Shown here one piece after another: positions 6,312-49,200 of a stretch of DNA of 64,000 nucleotides. The position numbers and the translations under genes were made by a program. Under the pieces are notes generated by a model that saw only the letters and a program-made list of their open reading frames with translations, did not search any database and was not told the origin of the DNA. Position 1 is the stretch's first letter, and each line of letters starts with the position of its first letter. The stretch is taken from assembly GCA_947579605.1 (NCBI GenBank), contig OX388313.1, positions 27,283,214-27,347,213 of the forward strand, in the 5' to 3' direction. The stretch is from Athripsodes cinereus. Lineage: Eukaryota; Arthropoda; Insecta; Trichoptera; Leptoceridae.

Positions 6312-7288
6312 TCCTTAATTCTTTTAACACCTACCTCCACTCTTTTGTCATTTAACTTATCTTCTTTTATCCTTTTTCTTTTGTTTTTCAATTTGACATT
6401 AGATATTAAAGATGTTTCTTTTTTTAAAACTTTAAGTTTGCTCATATTTTTACATTGTACACATTATTTTTTTCTTACTTTCTTCAGATAAATTTTTCAT
6501 TTTGCTGGTCTTCAATTTTCTATAGGTATTAATGCTGTATCGGTTTCAGTTTTACTTGACTTGTTGAAAATTGAGACAGCAACATAACAAATATATTAGA
6601 AACGAAAATATATCAGAACAGAAACCTCTCTCTCAAAAACTAATTTAAAAACATGGTTCTATATTTTCATATTTTATTTAATGTATATAACTTAGGGTTG
6701 AAATTATTGTAAAAAAATTAATAGTATTTATAAGAGAGTTTTGTAATATAAGTAATATATATTTTACAGTTACATGTCATATTAGATAAATATTTAACCT
6801 ATGTATTTTACCGTGTTATAATATGTTCGAAACATAAATTACACATTGTGGCACAATTTATTAATTACTGTTATTAATAAAACAAACAAAAAATAATTGA
6901 TTTTTATTTATTTAATCAATAGCAATCGATAAATAATAATACTATAAGTAATCATCATACACAGAAAAACATATTGGTTGTTCGTTATCGAATAGGACTA
7001 AAATTAGCTCCCTGTGGACAACCAACAATTTATGATGAAATGGACACTCGATTAGACCAGAAAAAGCAGAAAAGAAAAGTCAATTTCAATCATCAATCTA
7101 TCCATTACTATCAGTTAAAATCTATTGTCTTAAATAAATTACAAAATATATTTTAAATGATAGAAAGATTATTGGAATCGATCGTAACTGAAAACCAATT
7201 AAATCATACATACAAAACTCTGAATCACAGTAGTTAAAATAATTATACGTGCAGAAATAAATAAAGCATAATAAAATAAGTACTTGGG
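6312..7288. other. AT-rich spacer downstream of two convergent 3' ends
   Basis: No gene is recognised. Short frames here lack coding character. Confidence 0.4.
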
Positions 7289-10200
7289 TTAATCATTTTC
7301 TACAAACTCTTCAGAGAACTTGCTAAAAAGTTTTCTTTTCAAAGTTTTTTTCTTCTCAACATTTTCCTGTGCAGATAATTCAACAGAAGACGGCTGAATA
7401 TTTGAAATTGGAGTGTTGGAAATTGGCTGTGGATTATTATTATACTTCTGCTGAGCGTTTGTAGATTTATACTTTGGAATCACTTGAAAAGAACCATAAT
7501 TCGAGCTTGGTGCAGAATCTTGGAACCTAGTAGATGAAGTATTTGAAGCTCTGCTTAATGGTCTTTCAACTTTGCTGGCATATTCTTTATTTTGGAAATT
7601 GTTAAGATTTGAGGAATTCCCATGGTATGCTAATGTGGATGGACACTGTTGTCTGTTTTGATTTATTTTTGTAGTTTCGTTGGCTCTTGATATGGATGGT
7701 TTAACAATATTCGTGCGCTGACTTTGCTTCTGTTCTAGACGAAATATTCTCTGAAAAAAGAGGTAATATATTTTGGTGTATTCAAATAAAATAACCTTCC
7801 GCTGGCAATGTTCCTTTTGGAAACTAAGGAAGAATAGTAACCTCACACTAATTTAAAATGAAAGGGCATGGCAGAAGATACCTCTGCCAAAATCTTCTAG
7901 TAAGCTCTTTGTTTTTTAAGTAATATTGAAAATAAAAACGTGAAAGATCTTTTGTATTTTCACTGAATTCGTATCAACCCGTGAATGTTTATAAGAAATA
8001 AAAATATCAATTTTAACAAAAAAGAAAATAACAAAACAATATAACATTGCACTGATTACCTCTTTGAAAGCTATTTCAGCTGCGTTTGATTTCTCTATTA
8101 GATTACGCATTTCATCTTTCATTCTCATATACTGGGCCTGAGCTCTCTGTAATTTTTCTTCATAATCCAATACTAGTTTATTGATCTATAACAAATAATA
8201 ATTTTTATTATATTTTATTACCAATATTATATTTCATCCTTTAAACTTAACTTTTAATTTTTACGAAGTCAAAAAATGTGCGTACATAGGAAACTTCTAG
8301 GTTAAAATTGGAGCACAGAGCGTTACCTTAATGCAGAACTATCCTAAGTTCAAATTTTGTCATAATAAGTTAAGTATGAGGAAATAAGAAATGATAATAA
8401 TACACATGCCTACAAGATAATTTAACGAATGAGAGTAATGCGATTCGTACATAATAATGCGTGTCAAAATTTGTTAAAGTTTATTTTTATTACAAAAACA
8501 AAACTTTAAACTGCTCCTGTGAAAAAATCACCCTAAAGATACTTAGGATAGTTCTGCATTAAGGTAACGAGAGATTTCTCATAATATTTAACACTAACTA
8601 AAATAGTTTAAAAAGAGAAGAACATGAAGAAAAATGGGGAAATAGTCCTGCAAAGAATGGTGCACTAAGACGTGGCCATCCAATGACTAAATTGCAAGAT
8701 CATGATTATATACCAGATCCTATAGGATGGACAAGTGTTGAACATATTAGATATGAGAGCATGCATGAAGAGTTGCATAAAAGTGATGGAATCGACAAGT
8801 GCACCCCGAAAGGTAAGATGTCTTCCTTTAGAATTCAGACCCAGCTTACACTGGGGAAAATGAGATTATGAACTCTGCCCCTCTCCATCCCTTAAAAGAG
8901 AGAAGTGAATTATTCACGATGCGTCACAATGTGTAATAAATTCCATTTTATAATATACTTAGCATTTTCGATAGTAAAAATATGGAAACCTACTACATCT
9001 ATAGACAAAATCCTGAACTAAGATAACATGATTACATTCTACATGTTAAAATATTTCAAGCAAAAACCCGATAGATGGCGCTACACAAAAATGTAAAATT
9101 ATTTTAAAAACATTTTCTTTATTTTAGTACGAATTTTTTATGATATTTTTTGCTTTTAGATTCTAATTTAATATCTGTAGATCGGAATCTAGTACCTGTT
9201 CATCCTTCTCAGCCTTTGCTTGAATCGCATCTTCTTCCGCCTTTATTGATTTGCAAACGGCTTCTGATTTCACAATGTTCAACTCATTTTTCAATTCTTT
9301 CACTGAAAACATGTCAAAAACAAATTAGTATACCAACAAAATGTTTTTTTTGGATATTTCACCAACATAAACTTTCAAAAATATAGTACATACGAATCAA
9401 GTATAATTAGGTATATTAAAATCTCGATGACAAAAATTGACGATTCTACAACATTCGAGGAATATGCCTGTCTAATTAAATTAATACATTTCATAAATTT
9501 AATTTGTTTATTTATTTATTTTATTCTTCACTGTACATTGTTTACAATAATACCTACAAATTAGCATAGAAAATATCATTTATACAATTCAATGTACAGA
9601 GGGCGAGTTTATCGCTAAAATGCGATGTCTTCCAACTTACCCGGTTTGTTTTATATTACTCTTTGAATAAAGACCTAAAAATTAAGAAAAAAATTAAAAA
9701 TGAGGCCAACGATACGCGGTGTTCCCAAGCGGTCACCCATCCAAGTACTGACCGCGCCCAATGTTGCTTAACTTCGGTGATCGGACGAGAACCGGTGCAT
9801 TCAACGTGGTATGATCGTTGGCGAAATGGATGGTCATAATATTAGCATAATATTAACAATATTTTTCAATCTATTTATAGTTTTATCGTAGTACTAGAGG
9901 ATCGAGCGCCAGTTTTATCCTTACAAACACTTTTCGTATCCGTCACATAATTCCTCATGCATGCTCTCTTTCAATGTGCTCAACACAAGTCCTCAGTAGC
10001 TTGTTCACTTTCATACTCGTTATTACCTCAGTTTTCATTCCACAAACTTTATTGATTACACGATAAGAACTACATATGTTTTTCAGATTTGTACCACACA
10101 CAAAAGTTAAAACTTAGAATGTAAATGTTATGTGATACATGTACATGTAAAAGTATAGGTAAATATATTAAGTTTATAAAAATATGTAATGGCAGCCACT

Positions 10201-11438: not shown

Positions 11439-14400
11439 ATGTTTCGTTTTCTAAAGATGGAACGGAGCCAGTTATTTGTGTATATCGTTTTTATTTTGAA
11501 TGTAATTTCGATTAGTCTGTCGAGCCAAAACAAAATAGAATACAGATTTTCTACCAGAACACCCTACAGAGTTATAGAAAATAATGATTTAAACGTTGGA
11601 CAATATCCAGGTAACAATTAAAATTCTACTTAAATTTCGATACAATATGGTAAACTATTAAAAAAAGATAAGTGACTAGTTAGAGGTTATGTACAATAAA
11701 TATTATAATTCTGTGGTTCGACAGATGGATATGAGATATTTAATTACATAAAAAATGTCGAAACCTCTGAGTTTATTGATTGTGTTTAGAGATCGAATTG
11801 GCAGTAATGATTCCAGCAAAAAAATGTATTGTCACACAGAATACTATGTATACCCACATATTAGGAAATTAAGCTTTAATCAACTCAATTTCCATTGATT
11901 TGCCTCAAAAAAAGAAGTACACAATATGTTGGACAAATGTAAGCATTGCAATGCAATTTGAAACAAGTGTTCCTTTCTACTATTGTTTGTTAATTCGCAG
12001 AGAGACGTTTTTCGACTTATAAGGTCATTATCAATCTGATAATGACCTTATAAGTCGATAAGTCGATTGATAATGACCTTATAAGTCGAAAGACGTCTCT
12101 CTGCGAATTAACAAACAATAGTAGAAAGGAACACTTGTTTCAAATTGCATTATTATGGAATTCTACTACGTGTGCACCGGCACAATTAATATGTAAGCAT
12201 TGCCCTCATTCCCTTTGAACATCAGTAGATCTATGTCACCGTTTTTCATTAGAGATTACCAGTTTTGTTTACTTCATTCCAGGTTGTGAGCAACTTAAGA
12301 TATGGATGTTGATACGTCATGGTACAAGATTGCCTACACAAAAAATTATAGATTTTATGATAAATCAGTTACCATTCATAAGAGACATCATTGTTAACAA
12401 CCATAACAGCAATAAAGGTTTGTGAAAACACTTATTTTTGAATTTCATATCGAGACATGGTGGGTACGGAAAGATGAATTGGTAGCTTTGAAGGGGCTAG
12501 AGGAAGAAGACGATTTCCCAAGAGGTCGGAGGACTAGAGATCTATGATCAATCGTGTTGTAGAGGCAAGAAGGCTGGCTGGTTATGACCCTCAAAATTGT
12601 GAAAAGTGACAGAAGGGGAGATTGATATGTAAAAGACAAACAATTAACAACTTTAAAAACATTGCGAGTTGGCAACAAGACTTCATTTCCTTAATTGCAC
12701 ACCAAGGAGTCAGTTTGAAAGCACTGCTTAAAACCGTGTTTTGCTAGTAATGACACACAGGGTGAAAAATCTATGTGGGGCCCACATAACCTTCTAATTA
12801 TCACATAGATTTTTCTATAACACATTTTTATACATAATATAAGATAATCTCATAGTGGAATTAAACAGTGTTTGATTTAATTTAAATATTATCTTTTATA
12901 ATATAAGATTAGGTTTGTATGTTTTCTATATTTTCAGGTAAATTGACAGATGACGAAATTGACTCATTAAAAAAATGGACTCTTGGTGTGAAGGAGAATG
13001 ATTTAGAGGGAATGTTAGTGACAGAAGGAGAAAGAGAAATGTTTAAATTAGGACAAAGAACGAAGCAGCGTTTTGCAAATATTACAAATATAGAATTTGA
13101 TAGAATAAAGGTTTGTTCAGTCATTTTTATTTAAATACATAGAAATCTGAAAATATATCATTGTCTATTGAGCTTGATACTACTGCCTTAAAATTTCCTT
13201 ATAAAATATATAACATGGGTTAGTTGGAAGAGATCGCGCCTTTGCGATAAACTCGCCCTCTGTATATTGATTGTATTTAATTTGAATGTATACCTTTTAT
13301 GTAATTGTTTTTTTATCAATGTACAGTAAAGAATGAATAAATAAATAAAATAAAAATATAATCAATACATCATCACGGCATGCCAGTGGGGTAACCAATA
13401 GACTTAATTCACCTAATAAACTTGAAGAGTGTCCTCTCCGTGCCAATAATAAGTAAGTCATCCAGTTTGTGGCATACCTCATTACTGCTTAATCTTATAC
13501 ATGATGTTTTTGAATAACTGTCTTTTATAGGACATTAAAAACTTATGGAAAAGAGTGGGAGACGTATTCTTTGTCAGATTCTTTACAGAATATATATACC
13601 CACTGATTTTAAAATAAATAAACAAAAATATATTTTATATTTGCAGTTTAAGACAACTCCAACACAAAGAGCTTATATGAGTGCTCATTACTTTGCAAAT
13701 GGCATGTTTGGAGAAAATGTAAGTGATTTGAATATTGAAAAATCACCAGATGAAGGTGACAAAATATTGAGGGTAAGTGCTTTGAACATATCTATTTATA
13801 TAAAGTATAGAATAACTAGTTCCATAATCTTAACAGTTGCATATTTTTTGTTCAATGTGCTCACCACATTTCTATTGTATAAGATTTGGTGATTTGACAT
13901 TGTCTTCAACCAGCCTTCCTCCTAACCCTGTGTAATATCAAAGTTATTCCTTATACAAATCACTTATCGTCACATCATTATGTATCCCACAAGTGGAGTA
14001 AACAGCAGACTAACCATGCATATTAAACATGCAAGTTTTCCTGTGTGTGTCAATAAAAAATTAGGACTATGTTAGTTAGTTGAAAGACATCACATTCTAG
14101 CGATGAACTCGCCCTCTCTACATTGAATTGTATAACTGAAATTTTGTGATACTTTGTATTTATTTGTGATATTGCAACCAATGTACAGTGAAGAATAAAA
14201 TAATAATACTATACAAAAAAAAAAATACCTGATTTATCTATGTTAATCTGTTTGGTATTCAAAATAGACTAAAAATATATATAAGAATTCATTTCTTTAA
14301 ATTTTTCAGTAGATTATCAATAATATTTGGTTAGTATTCTTAGAAGAGAACAATAAATTTATTAGATTATTTTGATTTGTAAAAAAAATGCAGTTGTGTC

Positions 14401-15043
14401 AAATTATTTTTATTTTCTGTTTAGTTTTACAAATCCTGCGACAGTTGGCAGCAAAATGTCAAGAAGAATGACTTCACATACTCTGAGTTGGATGTCTATG
14501 TGGAAATGATTGAGATGAGAAACGCCCTCGCTGAACTCTCACTTAAAATGGGTATTGACGATCCTATTGCTTACAGTAAGTTGACAATTTTATTATTATT
14601 TTTTCTTGAATATAATTTGGGTTAGACCCAACATTTTTGGAGGTCCCAAAATAGATTACTGCTCTCTTTATTCACTGACTTGCATTAGGTATTCTGTATT
14701 AATTTCAAAGGAATGGCAAAGAAATAATGGTAGTTTTCGCATTTTGTAGTATTCTTTTAAAGGTTGTAATCTACTTGAGTCATAATTTTGTAGATTAATT
14801 TTCAAGTTTTAGTAGCAGTTTATTTGTATTTCACGATTTTACATTAAATACAACTTTTATTATCTGCCTTTATTGTATGTCATGAAAAATACATTAAAAT
14901 TTTAATAGTAATGGAAAATTTAATATTACTTTGGTTTGTATTACAAAATAGTGTTTTAGTTATTTGCATGTCATATATACAGAATGTGTATTGTTTTTTG
15001 AATAAAAAAAAAAAGCAAAAATTAACCGCCCCCGGGTGGGCTC

Positions 15044-15080
<37 letters not shown>

Positions 15081-15917
15081 GCCAATTGCGCCACGGAGGC
15101 CATGAGAGGTGGCGCCAAAATAACGAATAAAATCATTGAAGGAAAATCGCCCATAGTTTCAAGTTAAAGTTCTTGTTATAGTTCCCAAATTTTAAAATGA
15201 AATTCTTTCAAAATATTGTGATTCAACTATTTGTACGTGAAAATTAACAAACATTATTTTATTTTCGTATTTTTACGCGTTTGTATTGTAGTTAAATTGT
15301 TTATTGACAATAATAAAACAGGCTATTGCAGTGTACCTACTGTGTCCAGGCGAGAACGTAATAATGTTTCCGATGCTTTTCAATAGATGTCTACGACGCC
15401 GGGTGCGATATAAAGTGTAAACCGTTTTATCGAAATAAAGTTGTACCTACCAAAAAATCGTTTACGTTTTAATTTACCGCTAAATAGTTAATCGATTGTT
15501 TGTTTTAAAATTTAAAAACCGGAAAATAATGTTACGTGTTGTATAAACGAACACTAGAGGCGTTTGAGATGTGGACCTATAGAAGACTATTAAGAATTTC
15601 CTGGAGAGACCACATCACAAACGAAGAAGTTCTTCAAAGAATCGAAGGAGGAAGGCACCTGCTCAAGATTTTGTCAGAAAGGCGTGCAAGGTGGATCGGC
15701 CATGTAATACGACAAGAAGGCCTCTTGCATGCCGTAATGGAGGGTATGACCGAGGGGACAAACTCTAGGGGACGCCCACGCCGAGAGTACCTGGAGGACC
15801 TGCTTGTGGACATGCGCTGCTCATCATGTGCAGAATTCAAAAGAACCGCACAAGACAGGGAGGAGTGGAGGAGAAGAATTAAAGAGATAATTGCTGCAAA
15901 CCAATCCCAGGATTGAA

Positions 15918-15948
<31 letters not shown>

Positions 15949-18900
15949 TTGTATAAGATTTTTTATGAAATTTATTTCAATTGTTTAAACTAAAATTTAT
16001 GTGCAAAATAATTATCATTGAATTCGATCGCGAAATAAGTGTATAAACCTAATTATTTATGTGAAAAAAAAAAACAAAATATATCTAGCAGAGCGTGGTT
16101 TCGATCCACGGACCTCTGGGTTATGGGCCCAGCACGCTTCCGCTGCGCCACTCTGCTGTGTGGCGGGGCGTCGAAATGTTGGTATAAGAATGTAGGAAAC
16201 TATTGATTTTATAAAGAGTTCGTACACGTTACTATAAATTGTACGACTTATTATAGCATTGTTGTATTCGCGGTACTTCATATGTTTTTTTTAATAACTG
16301 CCGGCAATTCTCGCATTTGTCCCTTACAAATAAAATAAATTTAAAATCGGTGACATTAATAATAATAAAAACAACCTTAATAAAAAAAATCATGAGTAAT
16401 TGGCCGGCTTATTGTCTGGAGGTAATACCTTTCAGCTAATCTAATTCCTTTTTTGGAAATAGCAATAATATGTTGTTATATTGATGCATAATTAAGTGGC
16501 GCCTAGACGGTAGGTCATTGTATAAAACAATATTGTTATTTTTTAGATATGGGGAAATTAATATACAACGCTTGTGCATTTGAAACTGCATGGAGTTTGA
16601 ATGACACTGTTTCGCCATGGTGCGCTCTGTTTTCAAACAGCAGTATAAAGGTATGGTAAAATCCATTTATTATTTTCTTTATTTTTGTTAAAACAACACT
16701 TTTGTACTTATCACACTACCTAATTTCACAAGATTGTGTTTGAATACGGCCGTTGTTCGAAAATGCGCTGTGTAGTTAAAAAAAAAAACACTAGCGTTTC
16801 CCTCTGTTTTTATTGTTTAAAATATGGTTTGTAACATTTCTATTAATTTTTTTAGGCATTTGAGTACGCAGAAGATTTGAAATTATTTTGGCGGGATGGT
16901 TATGGAAGCAATCTGACAAAAAAACTACCGTGCAAGCAACTCGATGACATAGTTAATCTTTTCCAGTAAGTTTTTGTAAAATTATTTTTCTTGTTAAATT
17001 GATTGATAATTTTGTTTTGTTTGATAATATTTTATTTTTGTAAAAGGCATTAGCCGTTTATTCGGTAAATAAATTCATTATATAGAGAGGATTACTGATA
17101 GAAAATGACAAAGAAATTTTGTGTCTGAAAGGGAATGGTGTTGACTTTTATATACTCAAGATGAATGCTTCTGTGTAACAATATTCAAAGAGCACGCATG
17201 AGTGTGATGGGTTCAAGTAGAGGGTTACTCCCGGGAAAACCCTCTAATTTTTATTTCCCGTTTCCCGGGAAAAATACGAATCCTTTCCCGGGAAAAAATA
17301 CAAATTATTAGTCATGCAGATTGCCATACCGATACCGAAATCTTTGTTTAGTTAACTGTAATAGTCGTGATAAACTTGTAGAAGCTGACGAATATTTTGA
17401 TATGAAAATATGAAAAATAATATTAATTACCAATATAAGTGTTATACTTAAAAAAAAAACTTAATTATAGCTTCAATGTATTCGTTTGAAAGAAGCATAA
17501 TTATTCTAAATATAATTTGAAATCGGAGGTGTGTTTGGCCGACAATGTATAAGAATCCTACAATTTTTCATGTTTTTTTTTACATATTTCGAAAAGTTAG
17601 ATAGTTCTTAAAAATATTAGTGCAGCCAACTGTCATTTTTTTTGTTTTATTCATGGATATTAACCGATATAAAAAATCTTTTTTTGTCGAAATTTCTCAT
17701 TTTTTAAAGTTAAAAATCTTTAAAAAGCTTTGCCAAAATCCATAACATTTTTTGCTTGATAGGATGATCAAAAATTAAAAGTTTATATATTTTGTAAACA
17801 ATTTTTATTTTGATATAACGTAGAGGTCCTGGCTGGAACATGTTTTGAGAATGCCTAATGATAGTTGGCCAAAAAGAGCACTGTTTTTCCGTCCGCAGGG
17901 GTTCCGTCGGCCCGGGCGCCCCTCTTTCACAATACACCGTTCCTATGACAACGATATCAGAGCGCAAGGAATGTCGTGGAAAGAGGTGACGCAATTGGCA
18001 CAGAGACGCTCTGAATGGAGGAGGCTGGTTTCTGCCCTGTGCTCCCGAGAGGAGCGTTGAGGGCGATGATGATGACCTAAATAAATCTCGTCAGTCAGCT
18101 ATTTAGTTTTTTTAAGCAAATTACTTATATTGGTAACAAAAATTTGTTTTTTTTTTTATCAAATCAAAATGTTTGCAAGGGTCAACAAGTTATGAGAGTT
18201 TTTATACCAAATTTGTTGAAAATTGAATATTTATAAAATGAAATTCATTTTAAAATTTCCCGTTTCCCGGGAACAAAAATAATCCGGGAAAAGATACCCT
18301 CTAGGTTCAAGTGAATGAATAAAATCGTATGACTTTTGGTGCTCTTTGCAAATCCTATGATTACTTTTTGTAATGTTATTTATGGATTATTTCTTCTGCG
18401 CCGTTTAATGGAGTATCCAGTGTGAGAAAATGCCTCAATGATTTTTATTATCTTTTTTTAAAAGGGCAGCGCCCGCCACATACCTCGTGCCGTACCTGGA
18501 GATATGTATCTCCATAACGACACACACATGCACAAACAGGATTTAATGTCGCATTAAAGCGAGAAATGCTGCCCCGAGGGAGCACTCTAGATTTAGCGGG
18601 CACACACCAAAAAATTTGGTGCAAAAATGGAAGAGAAGAAATGGGAATATGCTTTCTTCATTTTTTTTGGAGGGGAGGGAAGAAGGAATTTTTATTATCT
18701 ATGTGTTTACACGGATATACACTTGAAGTGGATTTATTCCAGATAACAGCGTATTATAAATTTTGCAAGTAATATTATACGGATCGCCAACATTTGTGAT
18801 CATGAAAATCCTTCTTTATAATTTTCATTATTGAGCACACGGTAGATTTATATATAAATTTTTGCACGCTTTCGGCACCTCCCATATGGTCTAGTGGCTA

Positions 18901-20397
18901 GGATACCTGGCTTTCACCCAGGAGGCTCGGGTTCGATTCCCGGTATGGGAATTTCCTTTTGTTTTTTTTTTCACTCTTTATATCTATAATAAATCATTAT
19001 ATCCAAAGTGTGATACTGTGTAATTTTTTCCTCGCTGTTGAAGATCGTGAATTTTCAGATACGTTTAATGGCGAGATACTTGAATAGGATGTCATAGTTT
19101 TAAAGAATCATATTATTATGACTGTGATCTGATGAATTCATAACATGCATTTTGATAATTGTAACAACTTATCTTCTACTCGTAAAATGTTCATGAATTT
19201 GTTTTTGTGTCATGAGAAAAGGAAAAATGCGTCAATGTTACGCGTTAATTTCATTACGTACAATAATTTGTTTGGAGTCATCTATCGAAACTTCGGTATA
19301 AACAGAAGTTCTACAAACTGTTTATTCAACATCTATACAGATGGCTCTATATACATTCGAATTTAAACACAATTAAAAAAATGTTTATAATAATTACAGT
19401 TTCTATTATTTTCAGATCAGACAACACATCTTCCGTGTTCTATTTCTCACACTCTGGGACAATATTGAAAACTTTAGCATTCTTCGGACTTTATGAACCT
19501 ATCGGAGATTTGAGACATTATAGCCGAGATCCAAACCGACAATGGCAGACATCGCGAATTGACGCGTTTTCTTCGAATCTTGCCTTCGTTTTGTACAGGT
19601 TAGCCACGGAAAACAATATTTTTTCACTATGAAATAAAAAAGAAACAAGTGAGTGGTTTAGAAAGTTTTATCAACTAATCGATAAAAAAATAATGCTCAT
19701 ATGTCATTCAAATACTGTTATTTTGTCACTATAGCCATCGTGTTTCCGTGGTGTAGTGGTTATCACATCCGCCTAACACGCGGAAGGCCCCCGGTTCGAT
19801 CCCGGGCGGAAACATTTGATTTTTTAATTTTTTTTTCACTTTTATATCAAAAGTATTTTTCTTGTGTTTGATTTATTTTGGAAATATATTAAATTTTAAA
19901 TATGTTTATAACATGCAGTACAGGATTAAACAAGAAATAAATTTTATTACTTACATACAGATGACTTGGATTTTGGTTGAGTCATCTCTTAAGAATGAGT
20001 GTTGACCAAAAAGATTTTTTTTTCACAAGTTTTCAGTATTACAGTACAGTATTCCAATGATACCAACAATATCAAAGCATTAGGAATGCTATAAGAGGAA
20101 GTAATAAAATTAGTGGTAGACATGTATCCATTCTGTGCTCCTGAGAGGAACATTAAAGGGTAAAAGAAGAAATAAGAACAAGCAGTGATACGGGAAATGT
20201 AAATATTATTTTATTTTAATTACAGATGCGGTGAACATCTCAAATTTGGAACTTTTCATCAGGAGCGACTCATCCATCTTCCTGAATGTAACAAAGAAGA
20301 ACCTTTGTGTCCTATGGAGATTCTCTTAGAGAAGAACAAATCCATCAAGTGTGATTTGGAGGAGATGTGTTCTTTGAAGGCTAAAGATGAATTATGA
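11439..20397 (+). CDS. MINPP1: Multiple inositol polyphosphate phosphatase 1, complete nine-exon gene
   Basis: The exons are 11439-11610, 12283-12417, 12938-13110, 13647-13772, 14425-14575, 16547-16650, 16856-16965, 19416-19598 and 20226-20397. All have GT-AG borders and compatible phases and encode 441 aa. Residues 1-30 form a signal peptide (a second Met at 7 could also start it). RHGTRLP at 69-75 is the histidine acid phosphatase motif with the nucleophilic histidine. The C-terminus is KDEL, an ER retrieval signal, as expected for the ER-luminal enzyme that removes phosphates from InsP6 and other inositol polyphosphates. The second active-site motif reads HSG at 336-338 where the vertebrate enzyme has HAE, so the usual acidic residue is missing. 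The length is close to the family norm of 450-490. The introns carry four tRNA genes and several transposons. Assignment to the MINPP/histidine acid phosphatase family is firm; naming as MINPP1 rather than a paralogue is likely. Confidence 0.93.
11950..12151. repeat. 202-bp near-perfect palindrome (foldback element) in MINPP1 intron 1
   Basis: The left arm runs from AATGCAATTTGAAACAAGTG through CTATTGTTTGTTAATTCGC and AGAGAGACG. The right arm is its inverted copy, ending CAAATTGCATT. The centre contains three copies of GACTTATAAGGTCATTATC in alternating orientation, so several hairpins are possible. The arms differ by only a few bases. It looks like a foldback MITE or a recent inverted duplication. 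Confidence 0.75.
13217..13350 (+). repeat. GCG-hairpin retroposon tail in MINPP1 intron 3
   Basis: It reads GGGTTAGTTGGAAGAGATCG, CGCGCCTTTGCGATAAACTC and ends in AATAAATAAATAAAATAAAA. The best match is the copy at 40.6 kb. Confidence 0.65.
13366..13500 (+). repeat. Family-X retroposon fragment
   Basis: The block ATCATCACGGCATGCCAGTGG, followed by GTCCTCTCCGTGCCAATAA and GGCATACCTCATTACTGC, parallels the better copies at 33.2, 53.4 and 61.4 kb. The family is about 250 bp, and its (TAG)n end marks its 3' side. Confidence 0.55.
13975..14215 (+). repeat. Family-X head joined to a GCG-hairpin tail
   Basis: ATTATGTATCCCACAAGTGG and AAACATGCAAGTTTTCC are family X. The sequence then switches at about 14,078 to GTTAGTTGAAAGACATCAC, the GCG-hairpin tail, ending in AATAAAATAATAATA. 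The same pairing occurs at 551-750 and 39.3 kb. Confidence 0.55.
15027..15100 (-). tRNA. tRNA-Asn (anticodon GTT)
   Basis: The minus strand folds as a 74-nt cloverleaf. The acceptor GCCTCCG pairs with CGGGGGC (one T-G pair) with discriminator G, there is a D-arm with AATTGGCTAGC, the anticodon loop is CTGTTAA, and the T-arm is GGTGG-TTCGAGC-CCACC. A T-run follows on the minus strand as terminator. It lies in MINPP1 intron 5, antisense to the host. Confidence 0.95.
15536..15950 (+). mobile_element. LINE-A C-terminal remnant ending in (AG)n
   Basis: A 126-codon open frame contains EMWTYRRLLRISWRDHITNE and RARWIGHVIRQEGLLHAVMEG, the C-terminal region typical of RTE-like non-LTR retrotransposon polyproteins. 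It has the GRPRREYLEDL block and ends QSQD followed by about 28 bp of (AG)n. A second, frameshifted copy is at 61.8-62.1 kb. It is a 5'-truncated insertion in MINPP1 intron 5, between the Asn and Met tRNA genes. Confidence 0.75.
16086..16157 (-). tRNA. Initiator tRNA-Met (anticodon CAT)
   Basis: This is a 72-nt cloverleaf on the minus strand. The acceptor AGCAGAG pairs with CTCTGCT, giving the A1-U72 pair of eukaryotic initiators. The anticodon stem has three consecutive G-C pairs (GGG/CCC around CCCATAA), and the T-loop has A at position 54 (ATCGAAA) in place of TTCGA. All three are initiator hallmarks. A poly-T terminator follows. It lies in MINPP1 intron 5. Confidence 0.95.
17218..18303. 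mobile_element. hAT-type non-autonomous element with 8-bp target duplication
   Basis: The termini are TAGAGGGTTACTCCCGGG at the left and, inverted, TAGAGGGTATCTTTTCCCGG at the right. They are flanked by GGTTCAAG on both sides, a perfect 8-bp duplication characteristic of hAT transposons. Subterminal TTTCCCGGGAAA motifs recur at both ends. There is no transposase frame. A LINE-D fragment (about 17,821-18,080) has inserted in the middle. It occupies much of MINPP1 intron 7. Confidence 0.8.
17821..18080 (+). mobile_element. LINE-D C-terminal remnant ending in (GAT)n
   Basis: The open frame encodes MRMPNDSWPKRALFFRPQ, GRPSFTIHRSYDND and EWRRLVSALCSREER, then stops and runs into GGGCGATGATGATGACC. 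Two further copies are at 47.14-47.36 kb (minus) and 60.69-60.95 kb (plus), each ending in a GAT/ATG microsatellite at the same point. It is a 5'-truncated non-LTR retrotransposon C-terminus. Confidence 0.75.
18880..18951 (+). tRNA. tRNA-Glu (anticodon TTC)
   Basis: This is a 72-nt cloverleaf. The acceptor TCCCATA pairs with TATGGGA, the A-box is TGGTCTAGTGGCTAGGA, the anticodon loop is CTTTCAC, and the B-box is GGTTCGATTCC. It is followed by T-runs. It lies in MINPP1 intron 7 in the sense orientation. Confidence 0.95.
19742..19814 (+). tRNA. tRNA-Val (anticodon AAC)
   Basis: This is a 73-nt cloverleaf. The acceptor GTTTCCG pairs with CGGAAAC, the A-box is TGGTGTAGTGGTTATCA, the anticodon loop is CTAACAC, and the B-box is GGTTCGATCCC. 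It is followed by TTTTTT and TTTTTTTTT runs. It lies in MINPP1 intron 8 in the sense orientation. Confidence 0.95.
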
Positions 20398-20872: not shown

Positions 20873-22181
20873 TAGGGTGTCTCATATTGTTTTTCGTTTT
20901 TTGTTTGGCCGCTACGCGCCAAATACAGATTGCAGGGGGAGGGGAGTGGTGTCAAACGCTTGGTTGGCTTTTTAAGTTTAGTAGTAATGGATCACTTCAT
21001 GGGACCGTAGCGCGCATTTTGCGTGCGCGCGTTTTACAAAAACAACGATTCGTGCACTATTGTTCGACGTCTCTACAGGACAAATTTTCATTTAATCACT
21101 ATAAAAAATGTGCAAAGTGCAAATTTAATAAAGCATTGGGTGCGCAAATTTCAACTGACTGGGAACACAATGCCGGATAAATTAACTGGGCGCACAAGGA
21201 CATCGAGAACGAGCACGAACGCCGACCGCGTTCGCCAGTCTGTTATGAACGACCCACAACAGTCACTATGATTGCGCGCGGCTTCTCTAAATTTAAACAG
21301 ATCACCGATTCATTGCATTATTCGTAAAGATATGCATTTTCACGCCCATAAAATATTAATTGTTCAAGAAATAAAACCTGATGATCCTATAAAACGAGTC
21401 GAATTCTGCAGGACGATGAAAAATCGTTTTAGGAGTTTCAATAACGTATGGTTCTCCGATGAATCGAATTTTCACATCAACGGCCACGTGAATAAGCAAA
21501 ATTGCAGATACTGGGCTTCCGATAATCCACTTAAACTGCATCAGCAACCATTGCATCGCCGAAAGTTGTCGTTTGGGCTGCCATATCAAGTTAAGGAATT
21601 ATTGGCCCTTACATTTTTGAAGATGACCGTGGTCACGCTCAGACAGTTAATTATGATCGATATTGCCATATGATCAGGACTTTTTTGACTACAGAAATGC
21701 AAAACCAGATCGGCTACAACTGCTAGACATTTTTCCAACAAGATGGAGCCACTTCTCATGTAACAAATGACTCCCTAGCTGTTCTTCAAGAATTATTTCC
21801 TGAAAGAGTGATAAGTCGCCGAGGAGACATCTACTGGCCAACAAGGAGCCCAGATTTAACGCCTGCTGATTTTTTCCTATGGAGCTACTTAAAAAATAAG
21901 GTTTACAACCCATTCCCACCCAACCTGAACGTTTTGAAGCAAAGAATCACAGATGAAATAAACGCTATTCCTAGAGCGATGCTCCAGCGGGTAATTGAAA
22001 ATTTTAGTGCCAGGTTAAATGAATGTGAAGAAGGGTATGGTGCGCACTTACAAGCGGTTATTTTTCATAAATAAAAATTTAAAACCTGCTCTTTAATATA
22101 ATAGTAATTATAACAAGTTTGAAAAAATTCTTGTGTTTTATTTTTAAGTATCAAAAACGAAAAACAATATGAAACACCCCT
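20873..22181 (+). mobile_element. Mariner/Tc1-type transposon, nearly full length
   Basis: The element is about 1.3 kb, with inverted termini of about 28 bp (inner part CATATTGTTTTTCGTTTTT on both sides) and TA at each flank. It encodes a broken DDxD transposase on the plus strand. It lies about 480 bp downstream of the MINPP1 stop codon and may fall within or just beyond its 3' UTR. Confidence 0.85.
20987..22074 (+). pseudogene. Mariner transposase, DD41D type, inactivated
   Basis: The start is MDHF, with an early stop four codons later. A helix-turn-helix region follows (HWVRKFQLTGNTMPDK, VRQSVMNDPQQS). Then come a stop at 21,269-21,271, the first catalytic Asp in WFSDESNFHI, a frameshift near 21,580-21,700, and the second and third acids in FQQDGATSHV and TPADFFLW. 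The last two are separated by exactly 41 residues, the spacing reported for rosa-like mariners. The protein ends at VIFHK. With at least two stops and one or more frameshifts it cannot make transposase. Confidence 0.85.
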
Positions 22182-28875: not shown

Positions 28876-29246
28876 ACATTACCCCAGAACAGATTTTTTT
28901 AATCTAGTGGGGCAATACATTCCATAATGATGTTTTTTATGTTATTTTTGTAAGTAATATTTTTGGAAAATAAATAAAAAAATCAATAGTAATTTCTACT
29001 TTTATCGAGATTTAAAACATGATAGATTTAAAACATTCATTCCATCATGGAATTTCCCGCAAATGGGGTAGCTAGATGGTTTCTACATGCAAGTTGTCGA
29101 TGTTTATCGGTGTTTATTTTAACTAATCGTTCTTAGTTTGATGAAACGGAAAAGGTTAAGTTTTTGTAATTTAAAACTTTTTTTACATATTGACTGTCCA
29201 GCTCCATAGCTCAACAAGTAAAAATGTATTATATTCAAGAAATGAT
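28876..29246. other. Spacer preceding the 150-bp tandem array
   Basis: At 29,200-29,245 the sequence resembles 46,928-46,970 (CTCAACAAGTAAAAATGT), so the tandem array grew from a dispersed repeat. Confidence 0.4.
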
Positions 29247-29846
29247 TTTTTTTTGTAATTTCGGTATTTTTATATTTTACTTTAAACACACAACTTTGTT
29301 TTTATTCTTCTATATTTAAATAGAACCTTGTATTTTTGATAGTAATTTGTTTGTGGAATTGGAAGAGTAGCGTTGATTGCCTGTATTACCAATTATTTTT
29401 TTTTGTAATTTCGGTATTTTTATATTTTACTTTAAACACACAACTTTGTTTTTATTCTTCTATATTTAAATAGAACCTTGTATTTTTGATAGTAATTTGT
29501 TTGTGGAATTGGAAGAGTAGCGTTGATTGCCTGTATTACCAATTATTTTTTTTTGTAATTTCGGTATTTTTATATTTTACTTTAAACACACAACTTTGTT
29601 TTTATTCTTCTATATTTAAATAGAACCTTGTATTTTTGATAGTAATTTGTTTGTGGAATTGGAAGAGTAGCGTTGATTGCCTGTATTACCAATTATTTTT
29701 TTTTGTAATTTCGGTATTTTTATATTTTACTTTAAACACACAGCTTTGTTTTTATTCTCCTATATTTAAATAGAACCTTGTATTTTTGATAGTAATTTGT
29801 TTGTGGAATTGGAAGAGTAGCGTTGATTGTCTGTATTACCAATTAA
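29247..29846. repeat. Tandem array, 4 x 150 bp
   Basis: Four head-to-tail units begin at about 29,247, 29,397, 29,547 and 29,697 (each marked by GTAATTTCGGTATTTTTATA eight bases in). Units 1-3 are essentially identical. Unit 4 has a few changes (ACACACAGCTTTG, TTCTCC, GATTGTCTG). A single diverged unit lies at 46.97-47.48 kb. Confidence 0.9.
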
Positions 29847-30159
29847 TTTTTTTTTTTCGAAATTTACGATTTGTTGAGATATGAAAGTGATATTATTAAA
29901 CACATAAAATATACCATGATAATTTACGAAGGTGTATGTATGACTGATATAAATAATAGATATGAAAAACACTTTGTTATGTTTATTTTGTAAAGAAAAT
30001 TTAATAACGTCGAGTTAGAACCAAAATGAAAAATATCAAGGTTTTTTGGCAATTATCCTCGGTAAAGAATAAGAATTCTGCTCTTTTCTGTATGTTTTTG
30101 AGTGATCTTTAAAAAGCAAGTTCAAAAACTTCACATATAAGATAGTTGACATCTTCGAT

Positions 30160-46200: not shown

Positions 46201-49200
46201 GTTATTCGTGAAAAAGGTGCGAAATATCCGAATAACATCAGGTTTATCGCAAACGCGGAAAATTCAGATCATAATATGATATTTCTTCGGATTGTTCTTG
46301 TACGAATACATTAATCACATAATTCTTGATTACCACCAACTATCTATGTATATATACCAGCACGACATCAACTATTGTAAGAAATGCCTGTTCTCGAATA
46401 TGAATTCTAATTTAGATTTCTTTTTGCCGTAATTTGTGATCACGCTATCAGCCATGTTCACAAAACAATAGTAGTTACTTCACGTGGGAGCTGTGGGGTG
46501 TTGAATAAATAATTTATCAATATTGTATCGCCTCCCGCGGAGCTGCGAAACAAAGTGCTAGTGAAAATACTCGAAATGAGGAATGATTGATGGGTGGAAG
46601 AATTGCGGAATAAAACACTAGTTATATTATTATCTGCTATGGCCACCTTTATAAAACAACTAGTAGCAAACTTATGTATTCTATAAGAATTCTTATGATG
46701 GATTGAAAATAGATAGATAGATATTCTGATAAACTGCTGTTCACATTGAATAATAAATATAAATAAAAATGTATTGAAATAATTTTTGTGGTTGGTAAAA
46801 TTATGATGGAATGGAAAATTTACAACAATTGTTTGATGAAAAATAATTATAAAGTACTGTTTATATCATACTCACATTATACGTTGAGTCCCCGAAACAG
46901 ACTTAGGAATAAGTAAAATATGCTATCCAGTTTCATAAATCAACAAGTCAAAATGTCTTATATTCGAGAAATCGCAATTTTTGTAATTTTGATTTATTTA
47001 TTTTATGCTTAAAATCACAACAGGAAGTAAAATATACTATATAATAATCGCACTGTTAGAAGCATCATATTGTCTTTGTTTCATTCAATAAATAAACAAT
47101 TCAAAATATTGATTTGTGGAATTGAAAATAGGTAGGTCATCATCATCATCATCATCGCCCTCAACGCTCCTCTCGGGAGCACAGGGCAGAAACCAGCCTC
47201 CTCCATTCAGAGCGTCTCTGTGCCAATTGCGTCACCTCTTTCCACGACATTCCTTGCGCTCTGATATCGTTGTCATAGGAACGGTGTATTGTGAAAGAGG
47301 GACGCCCGGGCCGACGGAAAAACAGTGCTCTTTTTGGCCAATTATCAACTATCAACTATCTTATCATTACCTACATAATTTTGTTTTATTAACTAAATAT
47401 TTAATATACAAAAGGAACCATGTATTTTTTTATAGTTATTTTTTTGTGGAATTGATAGAGTGGAGTTGATTAAATATATTACTAATTAAATCTAAACATT
47501 CGAAAAGTTCGACTTTTTGAGTTGTGGAACTGGACAAAATGAACGTGTTAAAAAAATCATACCTATTAACTTATTAAATTGACAAGGATTTTTTGATATG
47601 TTTCAATTTTACTATAGAACCTTGTGTCTTGTTGTCATCAGCGGTCCCTGTGGACTGATCCCGGTCTCTCACTGTTTGGCAACATGGGATCACTTACATT
47701 TGAGCGTGGGGTGGATGGATGTGCTTGAGTGCATGGCTCTCTCGATCATAGCATCCTTGGGACATTGGATATTGGCTGTGTATTTAATTGGGCTTTGTAA
47801 CTCATACTGGATTGGTGATTTTATTTTGATTTCTAGTATTTTGGGATTTTTTATTTTTAGATTTACTTTGACTTTTTTTAGAAAATTTTAACTTTTACTT
47901 TTTTTCTCAAGACTTATGAGACTGAAAAATTGATTTCTAGTATTTTGGGATTTTTTACTTTTATATTTTTGTATTATTTTTAAATATTATATTATTATTG
48001 TTTTTAAATTTACTTTGACTTTTTTAGAAAATTTTAACTTTTGCTTTTTATTCTCAAGACTAAGACATTTCTGGTAAGAGTGGAATCTTTGCTGGTCCAC
48101 ATGTTGAGTGTATTAATTGTTAACATATTATGTTGTGACTGTTTGATTCTTTAATATTGTGAAAATAAAAATAAATAAAATAAAATAAAATAAATTATCA
48201 AATAAAATAAAATAAATATTTATTATTTTTGTTTCGTGTTACTGTTGAGTAAGACTAACGCACGACCGGTTTCGCGGACTCCTATTCCAAGAACTCCACG
48301 CCTGAAACCAACACGACCCCGCCTACCCCTACACCTTCACTGTAAACCCTAACGAACTTTTGTATTTGTTTTGTTTTAATTCAGTATAGATCAGCACCTG
48401 ATGATGCGAACTCGGAGTCCGCGAAACCGGTCGTGTTACTGTTGAGTAAGACTAACGCACGACCGGTTTCGCGGACTCATATTCCAAGAACTCCACGCAT
48501 GAAACCAACACGACCCCGCCTACCCCTACACCCTCACTGTAAACCCTAACGAACTTTTGTATTTGTTTTGTTTTAATTCAGTATAGATCAGCACCTGATG
48601 ATGCGAACTCGGAGTCCGCGAAACCGGTCGTGCGTTAGTCTTACTCAACAGTAACACGAAACAAAAATAATAAATATTTATTTTATTTTATTTGATAATT
48701 TAAAATGAAGTGTTACAAAGTAAATGCCGATACAATTAATAAAATAAAATAGTTTTTTCATAATTTATCTTAACACCAGAATTATGAAAACGACGGAATG
48801 TAGAAGAAGGTCATCAATTTCCCTAAAGAATAAATAAATAATTCTGAAAAATACGAACCATGAAAGGCTGTTCTTGAAAGAAAAGGTTCACGTAATATTT
48901 CAGTCGTAGATATACTGACTATTGAGATTAAGATTTTTAGCTTTGAAAAAGCATTCAACCGATAAAAATAGATGGTGTTGGGAATGTGAAAATGAAATAT
49001 TTTAAACATTGGCAAAAAATTTAATAATATTTCTCTAACAATTCTTCTATCCTATTAGGGTATTTATGAACACTTGGACAGATGAAGGATGAACTTGCTG
49101 AAAATATATGCAACTAACTTCTTTTGAATTATGAAAAATTACACATCTAAACTTCGTAAGTTCAGTTGTATGGTGTTGAACCCATTCTAGGTATTATCTT

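Follow-up and report, generated by a model that had tools for sequence, protein, structure and literature searches.

Penelope-like elements (PLEs) of the GIY-YIG class with hammerhead ribozymes in their pLTRs were reportedly described by Cervera and de la Pena in 2014 and by Lunse et al. in 2017. Hammerheads in PLE terminal repeats are part of the available record (PMC7761336, PMC11167929), and for PLE protein it is reported that both target strands are cut and extended, with reverse transcription starting at two adjacent internal sites (PMC11167929). In the accessible part of the same paper the hammerhead of the Anolis PLE does not cleave without PLE protein, no RNA-seq reads begin or end at its cut site and hammerhead mutations have no effect on insertion in vitro (PMC11167929); on account of these results a role in processing is unestablished even in a studied PLE. 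For Penelope elements of rotifers, inverted pLTRs, a tail, target-site duplications, tandem truncated copies and palindromic junctions are reported, and self-priming has been proposed (PMC3846280).

In our study we analysed a stretch of 64,000 nucleotides of Athripsodes cinereus (hereafter the window), where two hammerhead motifs stand in tandem inside what is very probably a non-autonomous, 5'-truncated PLE insertion, with an inverted pLTR piece and a 197-bp tandem duplication. The element family has in common with GIY-YIG PLEs bearing pLTR hammerheads, PAc of Anolis included, an ORF with reverse transcriptase (RT) and GIY-YIG domains, a pLTR that is shared by tandem copies and bears a minimal type I hammerhead, a tail and insertion into AT-rich DNA, as far as the accessible text on PAc goes (PMC11167929). 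The two differ in the place of the cut, which in PAc lies 26 bp after the ORF start and here is predicted 75 nt before it; unlike the known hammerheads of GIY-YIG PLEs, ours has an extra U after A9, and the copy in the window is shortened to about 0.55 kb and bears the 197-bp tandem duplication. The paper on Penelope families of Adineta vaga does not use the word hammerhead in its main text, and its available parts describe no short tandem duplication between hammerheads (PMC3846280). The metazoan non-LTR retrozymes are alike in having one type I hammerhead per tandem unit of a few hundred bp and low predicted folding energy; in the accessible portion of their description, however, they form multi-copy families with detected circular RNA (PMC7229834), whereas the tandem analysed here was found at one locus, is PLE-derived and has a ribozyme predicted to be blocked. 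No Penelope copy containing a 197-bp tandem of hammerheads is described in the searched literature, which covers few papers from subscription journals and these sources in part.

Two hammerhead-like motifs exactly 197 bp apart, at the ends of 197-bp direct repeats, had been reported in an earlier note made from the letters alone, and re-reading of the sequence confirms both the motifs and their spacing. Hammerhead 1 occupies 48394-48436 of the forward strand (GCAC at 48394, core 48398-48432, predicted cleavage between 48432 and 48433) and hammerhead 2 lies at 48591-48633 of the same strand (GCAC at 48591, core 48595-48629, predicted cleavage between 48629 and 48630), which sets the predicted cuts 197 nt apart. 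Both read, in order, GCAC, CTGATGA, one extra T, stem II, GAAA, CCGG, TC and GTG(T/C). The two tandem units (48234-48627, forward strand) are the direct repeats 48234-48430 and 48431-48627, with three mismatches, at 48282, 48302 and 48336; both begin with TCGTG, a sequence that lies across the hammerhead cleavage site as well. The parts of a type I hammerhead are present, namely the CUGANGA/GAAA core, stems I-III, a UH cleavage site and an open stem I, plus one extra U between A9 and stem II in both motifs. Stem II consists in each of two 3-bp blocks, GCG/CGC and ACU/AGU, with an A.C mismatch between them, hence its description as well-paired was slightly generous. The complementary strands claimed for stem I form four base pairs in the second motif (GCAC/GUGC), while in the first motif the fourth pair is G.U. 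As for the likening of this anatomy, with its minimal palindromic stem III, to the hammerheads of Penelope-like terminal repeats, it is borne out by the copies in the own genome, which show the Penelope link.

Search of the own assembly (716 Mb, 160 contigs), in which 40 of 1004 candidates were scored, gave at least 95 matches, and in the same search the piece 48476-48640 was matched over its full length at 98-99% in at least 39 further places on 14 contigs; the PLE copy number obtained in this way is a lower bound. Longer flanking stretches identified the piece as the 3' end of a longer element. A partial ORF of 551 codons at another locus (L438) matched two Pfam families with scores better than their curated cut-offs, RVT_1 at E 2.4e-9 and GIY-YIG at E 1.5e-5, and in locus L447 the frame at 6397-8895 is open over 832 codons, giving 830 aa when read from its first ATG. 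In this second locus a truncated copy, starting from PLE position 1243, stands in direct tandem and runs into a copy starting from PLE position 1, with the hammerhead located in the shared pLTR. In this pLTR the ORF stop is followed by 87 nt to the predicted cut and then by 75 nt to the ATG of the next ORF, so that the unit from cut to cut is 2655 nt with the ATG at offset 75. The best protein relative is P0073 (41% identity, with RVT_1 and GIY-YIG; best among the 120 proteins listed of 283, 7989 candidates scored), and the named relatives among those 120 include proteins of Euphydryas and Diabrotica. Judged by sequence, the family is a Penelope-like retrotransposon with RT and GIY-YIG and with one type I hammerhead motif in the pLTR.

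Related genomic copies with a conserved core, the lack of which had been named beforehand as speaking against the motifs, are numerous: a count over 36 loci gave 45 motifs in which the core is exact, those of the window included and motifs with a changed core left out of the count. The PLE copies at these loci have variable 5' truncation points. A head-to-head inverted junction within 30 nt occurs in 21 of the 36 loci, again with the window among them, and the arms are of many lengths; the shorter arm consists of pLTR sequence in 18 of these junctions and comes from inside the ORF in the other 3. In this manner the pLTR is given as the exact place of the hammerhead motif, in a PLE that is dispersed and nearly uniform and has one copy bearing an open 830-codon frame, and the role of hammerheads in PLEs becomes testable within one genome.

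The window copy itself can be read piece by piece. The 14-base repeat AATAAAATAAAATA is flush with both ends of the insert, at 48179-48192 on the left and as an exact match at 48738-48751 on the right; being AT-rich, it is taken as a probable target-site duplication only, the last 2 bases of the left copy overlapping the inverted-repeat arm and the first 3 bases (AAT) of the right one being equally attributable to the end of the tail. At the 5' end of the insert is an inverted pLTR piece (48191-48282, reverse strand), which corresponds to PLE 2728-2637 at 100% in BLAST and is the left arm of a perfect 92-nt inverted repeat, 100% complementary to 48611-48702. This repeat, absent from the earlier note, encloses both 197-bp units. 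Next comes PLE 3' end in direct orientation, as a first piece (48279-48435, forward strand, PLE 2502-2658, 98.7% to the PLE of L447) that holds the final 67 nt of the ORF, with the stop ending at 48345, along with the 3'UTR and hammerhead 1. A second inverted pLTR piece (48431-48478, reverse strand, PLE 2685-2638) is due to the tandem duplication and holds a 21-nt complement of the 3' half of the ribozyme. The second direct piece (48476-48745, forward strand, PLE 2502-2771) is 99.3% identical to the PLE of L447 and exact to 48740; it comprises the ORF end (stop ending at 48542), hammerhead 2, the 75-nt leader and, as 3' tail, the ORF start with its ATG at 48705, from where the window reads ATGAAGTGTTACAAAG, the same as the start of the PLE ORF. 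Of the element the copy retains no more than 67 nt at the ORF end, which hold about 21 codons and the stop, together with 3'UTR, hammerhead, leader and 3' tail.

The end points of the insert lie near PLE +73 on the left and at +111 to +116 on the right. Since they resemble the two adjacent internal start sites reported for PLE protein in the accessible text (PMC11167929), we infer a separate start of reverse transcription for the two sides of the insert, on PLE RNA and from both cut target strands, and the inverted piece would have arisen when the two reverse transcription products joined at short homology. The inverted piece may alternatively have originated by self-priming, and for the steps behind it and behind the duplication one locus may permit several courses. 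Copying of the left flank by snap-back was also considered, and is ruled out by the 43 outer nucleotides of the piece, which are PLE leader found in other copies.

Further 197-bp units, which the earlier note proposed to look for in the host genome, did not turn up: the tandem junction was found at the window locus alone in the 716-Mb assembly at up to 2 mismatches, with no match for a reversed control pattern (in this search counts for large families are lower bounds). After the 45 exact-core hammerheads the sequence is the ordinary leader GTGCGTTAG in 44 cases, and GTGTTACTG in one, which is unit 1 of the window. Because the junction is found once, the tandem duplication looks like a single event, probably a one-off rearrangement with no family of units behind it, and it could have been produced by one template switch or slippage. 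That the units differ at three positions argues against a duplicate made by the assembly; polarised against L447, the derived bases are in unit 1 at 48282 and 48336 and in unit 2 at 48302. The duplication is joined at a 5-nt microhomology, TCGTG, coinciding with the predicted cleavage site; this may be fortuitous, or it may betray a template end cut by the ribozyme.

Several controls concern the probability of meeting such motifs by chance. The pattern CTGATGA-N5-30-GAAAC-N2-12-GTCG occurs twice in the window and is absent from all of 100 shuffles. A structural descriptor found both window sites; among 6273 dinucleotide-shuffled windows 159 gave at least one match, so a single motif of this kind would be unremarkable by itself, and 4 gave at least two. 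In viral and prokaryote contigs outside the window none of the 192 listed exact matches to CTGATGA-N6-30-GAAACCGGTC has stems I and II both with at least 3 contiguous pairs, as opposed to 2 of 2 in the window. The exact ribozyme pattern had no match in viral contigs, and BLAST of phages and plasmids likewise gave none.

For scoring, a covariance model (R1) was prepared from 21 viral-contig hammerheads, none of them from the own genome, and run unfiltered on both strands of the window. Its sources were type I hammerheads mined from IMG/VR contigs, presumably phages, out of which 35 of 138 eligible matches were sampled (30 at random and 5 with the extra base chosen on purpose), 14 of the 35 being then removed by eye for misaligned 3' ends. 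The proportion of rows with the extra U (5 of 21) is deliberately above the rate of 10 in 250 among mined matches, and this favours the window sites somewhat. Scoring with covariance models, proposed in the earlier note, had a divided outcome. R1 placed hammerhead 1 first in the window (23.8 bits, E 2.5e-5) and hammerhead 2 second (18.0 bits, E 0.0023), with E values that are rough owing to a shortened calibration; the third-ranked match, at 12030-12071 with core CUGAUAA (15.4 bits, rough E 0.017), is probably chance. In all 12 examined loci of the own genome R1 found the motif, 16 times altogether and each time at 18.0 bits. Rfam 15, on the other hand, gave no hammerhead match in the whole window at gathering score, none in 48150-48720 up to E 10, and none up to E 1 in L447, where further copies of the motif lie. 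Little weight attaches to this silence, because the Rfam model Hammerhead_1 stays below its cut-off of 34 also on the viral-contig hammerheads of locus L340, at 31.8 and 31.7 bits.

The extra U had been regarded as unusual and as possibly weakening or altering activity, a worry which is lessened by its occurrence elsewhere. Ten of 250 unique type I descriptor matches from viral and prokaryote contigs outside the window have a one-base insertion between A9 and stem II, and in nine of the ten it is T, one of these nine (L428) coming from a scan whose pattern required T. The nine extra-U motifs lie in eight viral-contig loci (L030, L034, L196, L280, L323, L340, L385 and L428). On the strength of these 10 in 250 mined sequences the position of the extra U is a recurrent natural variant, small in number, and the viral-contig examples deserve a survey of their own. 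The title of one cited paper refers to an extra nucleotide in the core of a viroid hammerhead.

Predicted folding separates the window copy from the ordinary pLTR. In the comparison only stems I and II were forced, and the energy was expressed as the excess above the best fold. In ordinary pLTR the hammerhead fold lies 3.4-6.7 kcal/mol above the minimum-energy fold, with a stem II probability of 0.15-0.82 depending on the length folded; in window transcripts with the inverted piece the gap to the best fold widens to 35-44 kcal/mol, and the 3' half of the ribozyme is predicted to pair with the inverted pLTR piece at a summed probability near 1. The context matters too, since unit 1 without the inverted piece still has its hammerhead fold 13.4 kcal/mol above the best. 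Being upstream of the ribozyme, the inverted piece is transcribed first. In the window copy a hairpin formed with the inverted piece would thus tie up the ribozyme, and from the folding models poor cleavage is expected. Release of a 197-nt RNA, which the earlier note had put forward for this locus, is unlikely because the predicted hairpin disfavours the hammerhead fold; the inverted piece predicted to capture the ribozyme 3' half is in each unit, and the junction was found once in the genome. Blocking alone leaves function possible, as the hammerheads of plant retrozymes are reported, in the part of the text available, to adopt a blocked conformation (PMC4918200). The ordinary pLTR transcript would probably cleave, perhaps as a dimer or with protein: the short palindromic stem III (ACCGGU) may make the hammerhead dependent on one or the other. 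In tandem or read-through PLE transcripts it is then rather likely that the hammerhead would cut one 2,655-nt unit from the next.

The tandem invites comparison with a non-LTR retrozyme, in which the 197-bp units would be a mobile family whose transcripts are cut twice, circularised and copied back into DNA. The unit length is within the 150-450 bp reported for metazoan type I hammerhead repeats, which likewise have one hammerhead per unit and occur as dimers in the accessible description (PMC7229834), and a stable fold is predicted for the circle of unit 2, with an MFE of -52.2 where shuffled sequences average -31.8 (z -5.3, none of 100 shuffles as low). However, the hairpin that stabilises this circle is the same one that is predicted to block the ribozyme, and the circle is 53-56% paired, near the shuffle mean of 52% and below the 70% reported for retrozyme RNAs in the text at hand (PMC4918200). 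Moreover, 154 of the 197 nt of the unit are plain PLE 3' end and the tandem junction follows just 1 of the 45 exact-core hammerheads, all of which makes such a family very improbable. A reading of the locus as a retrozyme being born from a Penelope element, through duplication of an inverted-piece insertion exactly at the hammerhead cleavage site, we regard as improbable. The ribozyme-cut 3' end would perhaps have been the template end where reverse transcription jumped; were it true, one step would yield self-complementary units, as long as those of retrozymes and each with one hammerhead, which PLE protein could release and copy. With the insertion taken as a truncated PLE, the window copy indicates that Penelope insertion can yield retrozyme-like dimers as a by-product, and for this reason a short hammerhead tandem alone is no proof of a retrozyme.

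The perfect 92-nt arms and the TA at both outer ends would also suit a TA-flanked miniature DNA transposon whose terminal inverted repeats measure 92 bp and which carries hammerheads by chance. Yet both arms consist of sequence from the PLE pLTR, at other loci neither the length nor the end point of the inverted pieces is constant, and on the right the insert runs on into the start of the PLE ORF, which forms a tail; on this PLE mapping and the variable pieces at other loci the DNA transposon was dropped, with next to no probability left to it. A third alternative takes the hammerhead-like sequence as devoid of ribozyme activity and kept solely because the PLE copies are young. Nearly all copies seen are close to identical, hence conservation cannot show selection, Rfam is silent, and in the accessible report the Anolis PLE hammerhead does not cleave without protein (PMC11167929). 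On the opposite side the core, three stems and cleavage triplet fit, the R1 E values of 2.5e-5 and 0.0023 point the same way, and hammerheads have been reported, in the available parts of two papers, from PLE terminal repeats (PMC7761336, PMC11167929). We consider this alternative very improbable.

Elsewhere in the window a 5S rRNA gene at 9704-9822 (reverse strand), which we take to be arthropod-like, shares a span of about 10 kb with four tRNA genes, for Asn (15027-15100), Met (16086-16157), Glu (18880-18951) and Val (19741-19815, by ARAGORN only). Within the same span an open frame at 15530-15916 is presumably the tail of an insect reverse transcriptase; its named relatives are in Phthorimaea, Choristoneura and Diabrotica, and Pfam gave no match for it. 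Two adjoining open frames at 21272-22074 appear to us to be pieces of a mariner transposase, again with no match in Pfam, and over 10 ORFs of the window the sole Pfam match was weak (E 0.0031, below its cut-off). At 29241-29855 there is a tandem array of a 150-bp AT-rich unit in 4.1 copies at 98%.
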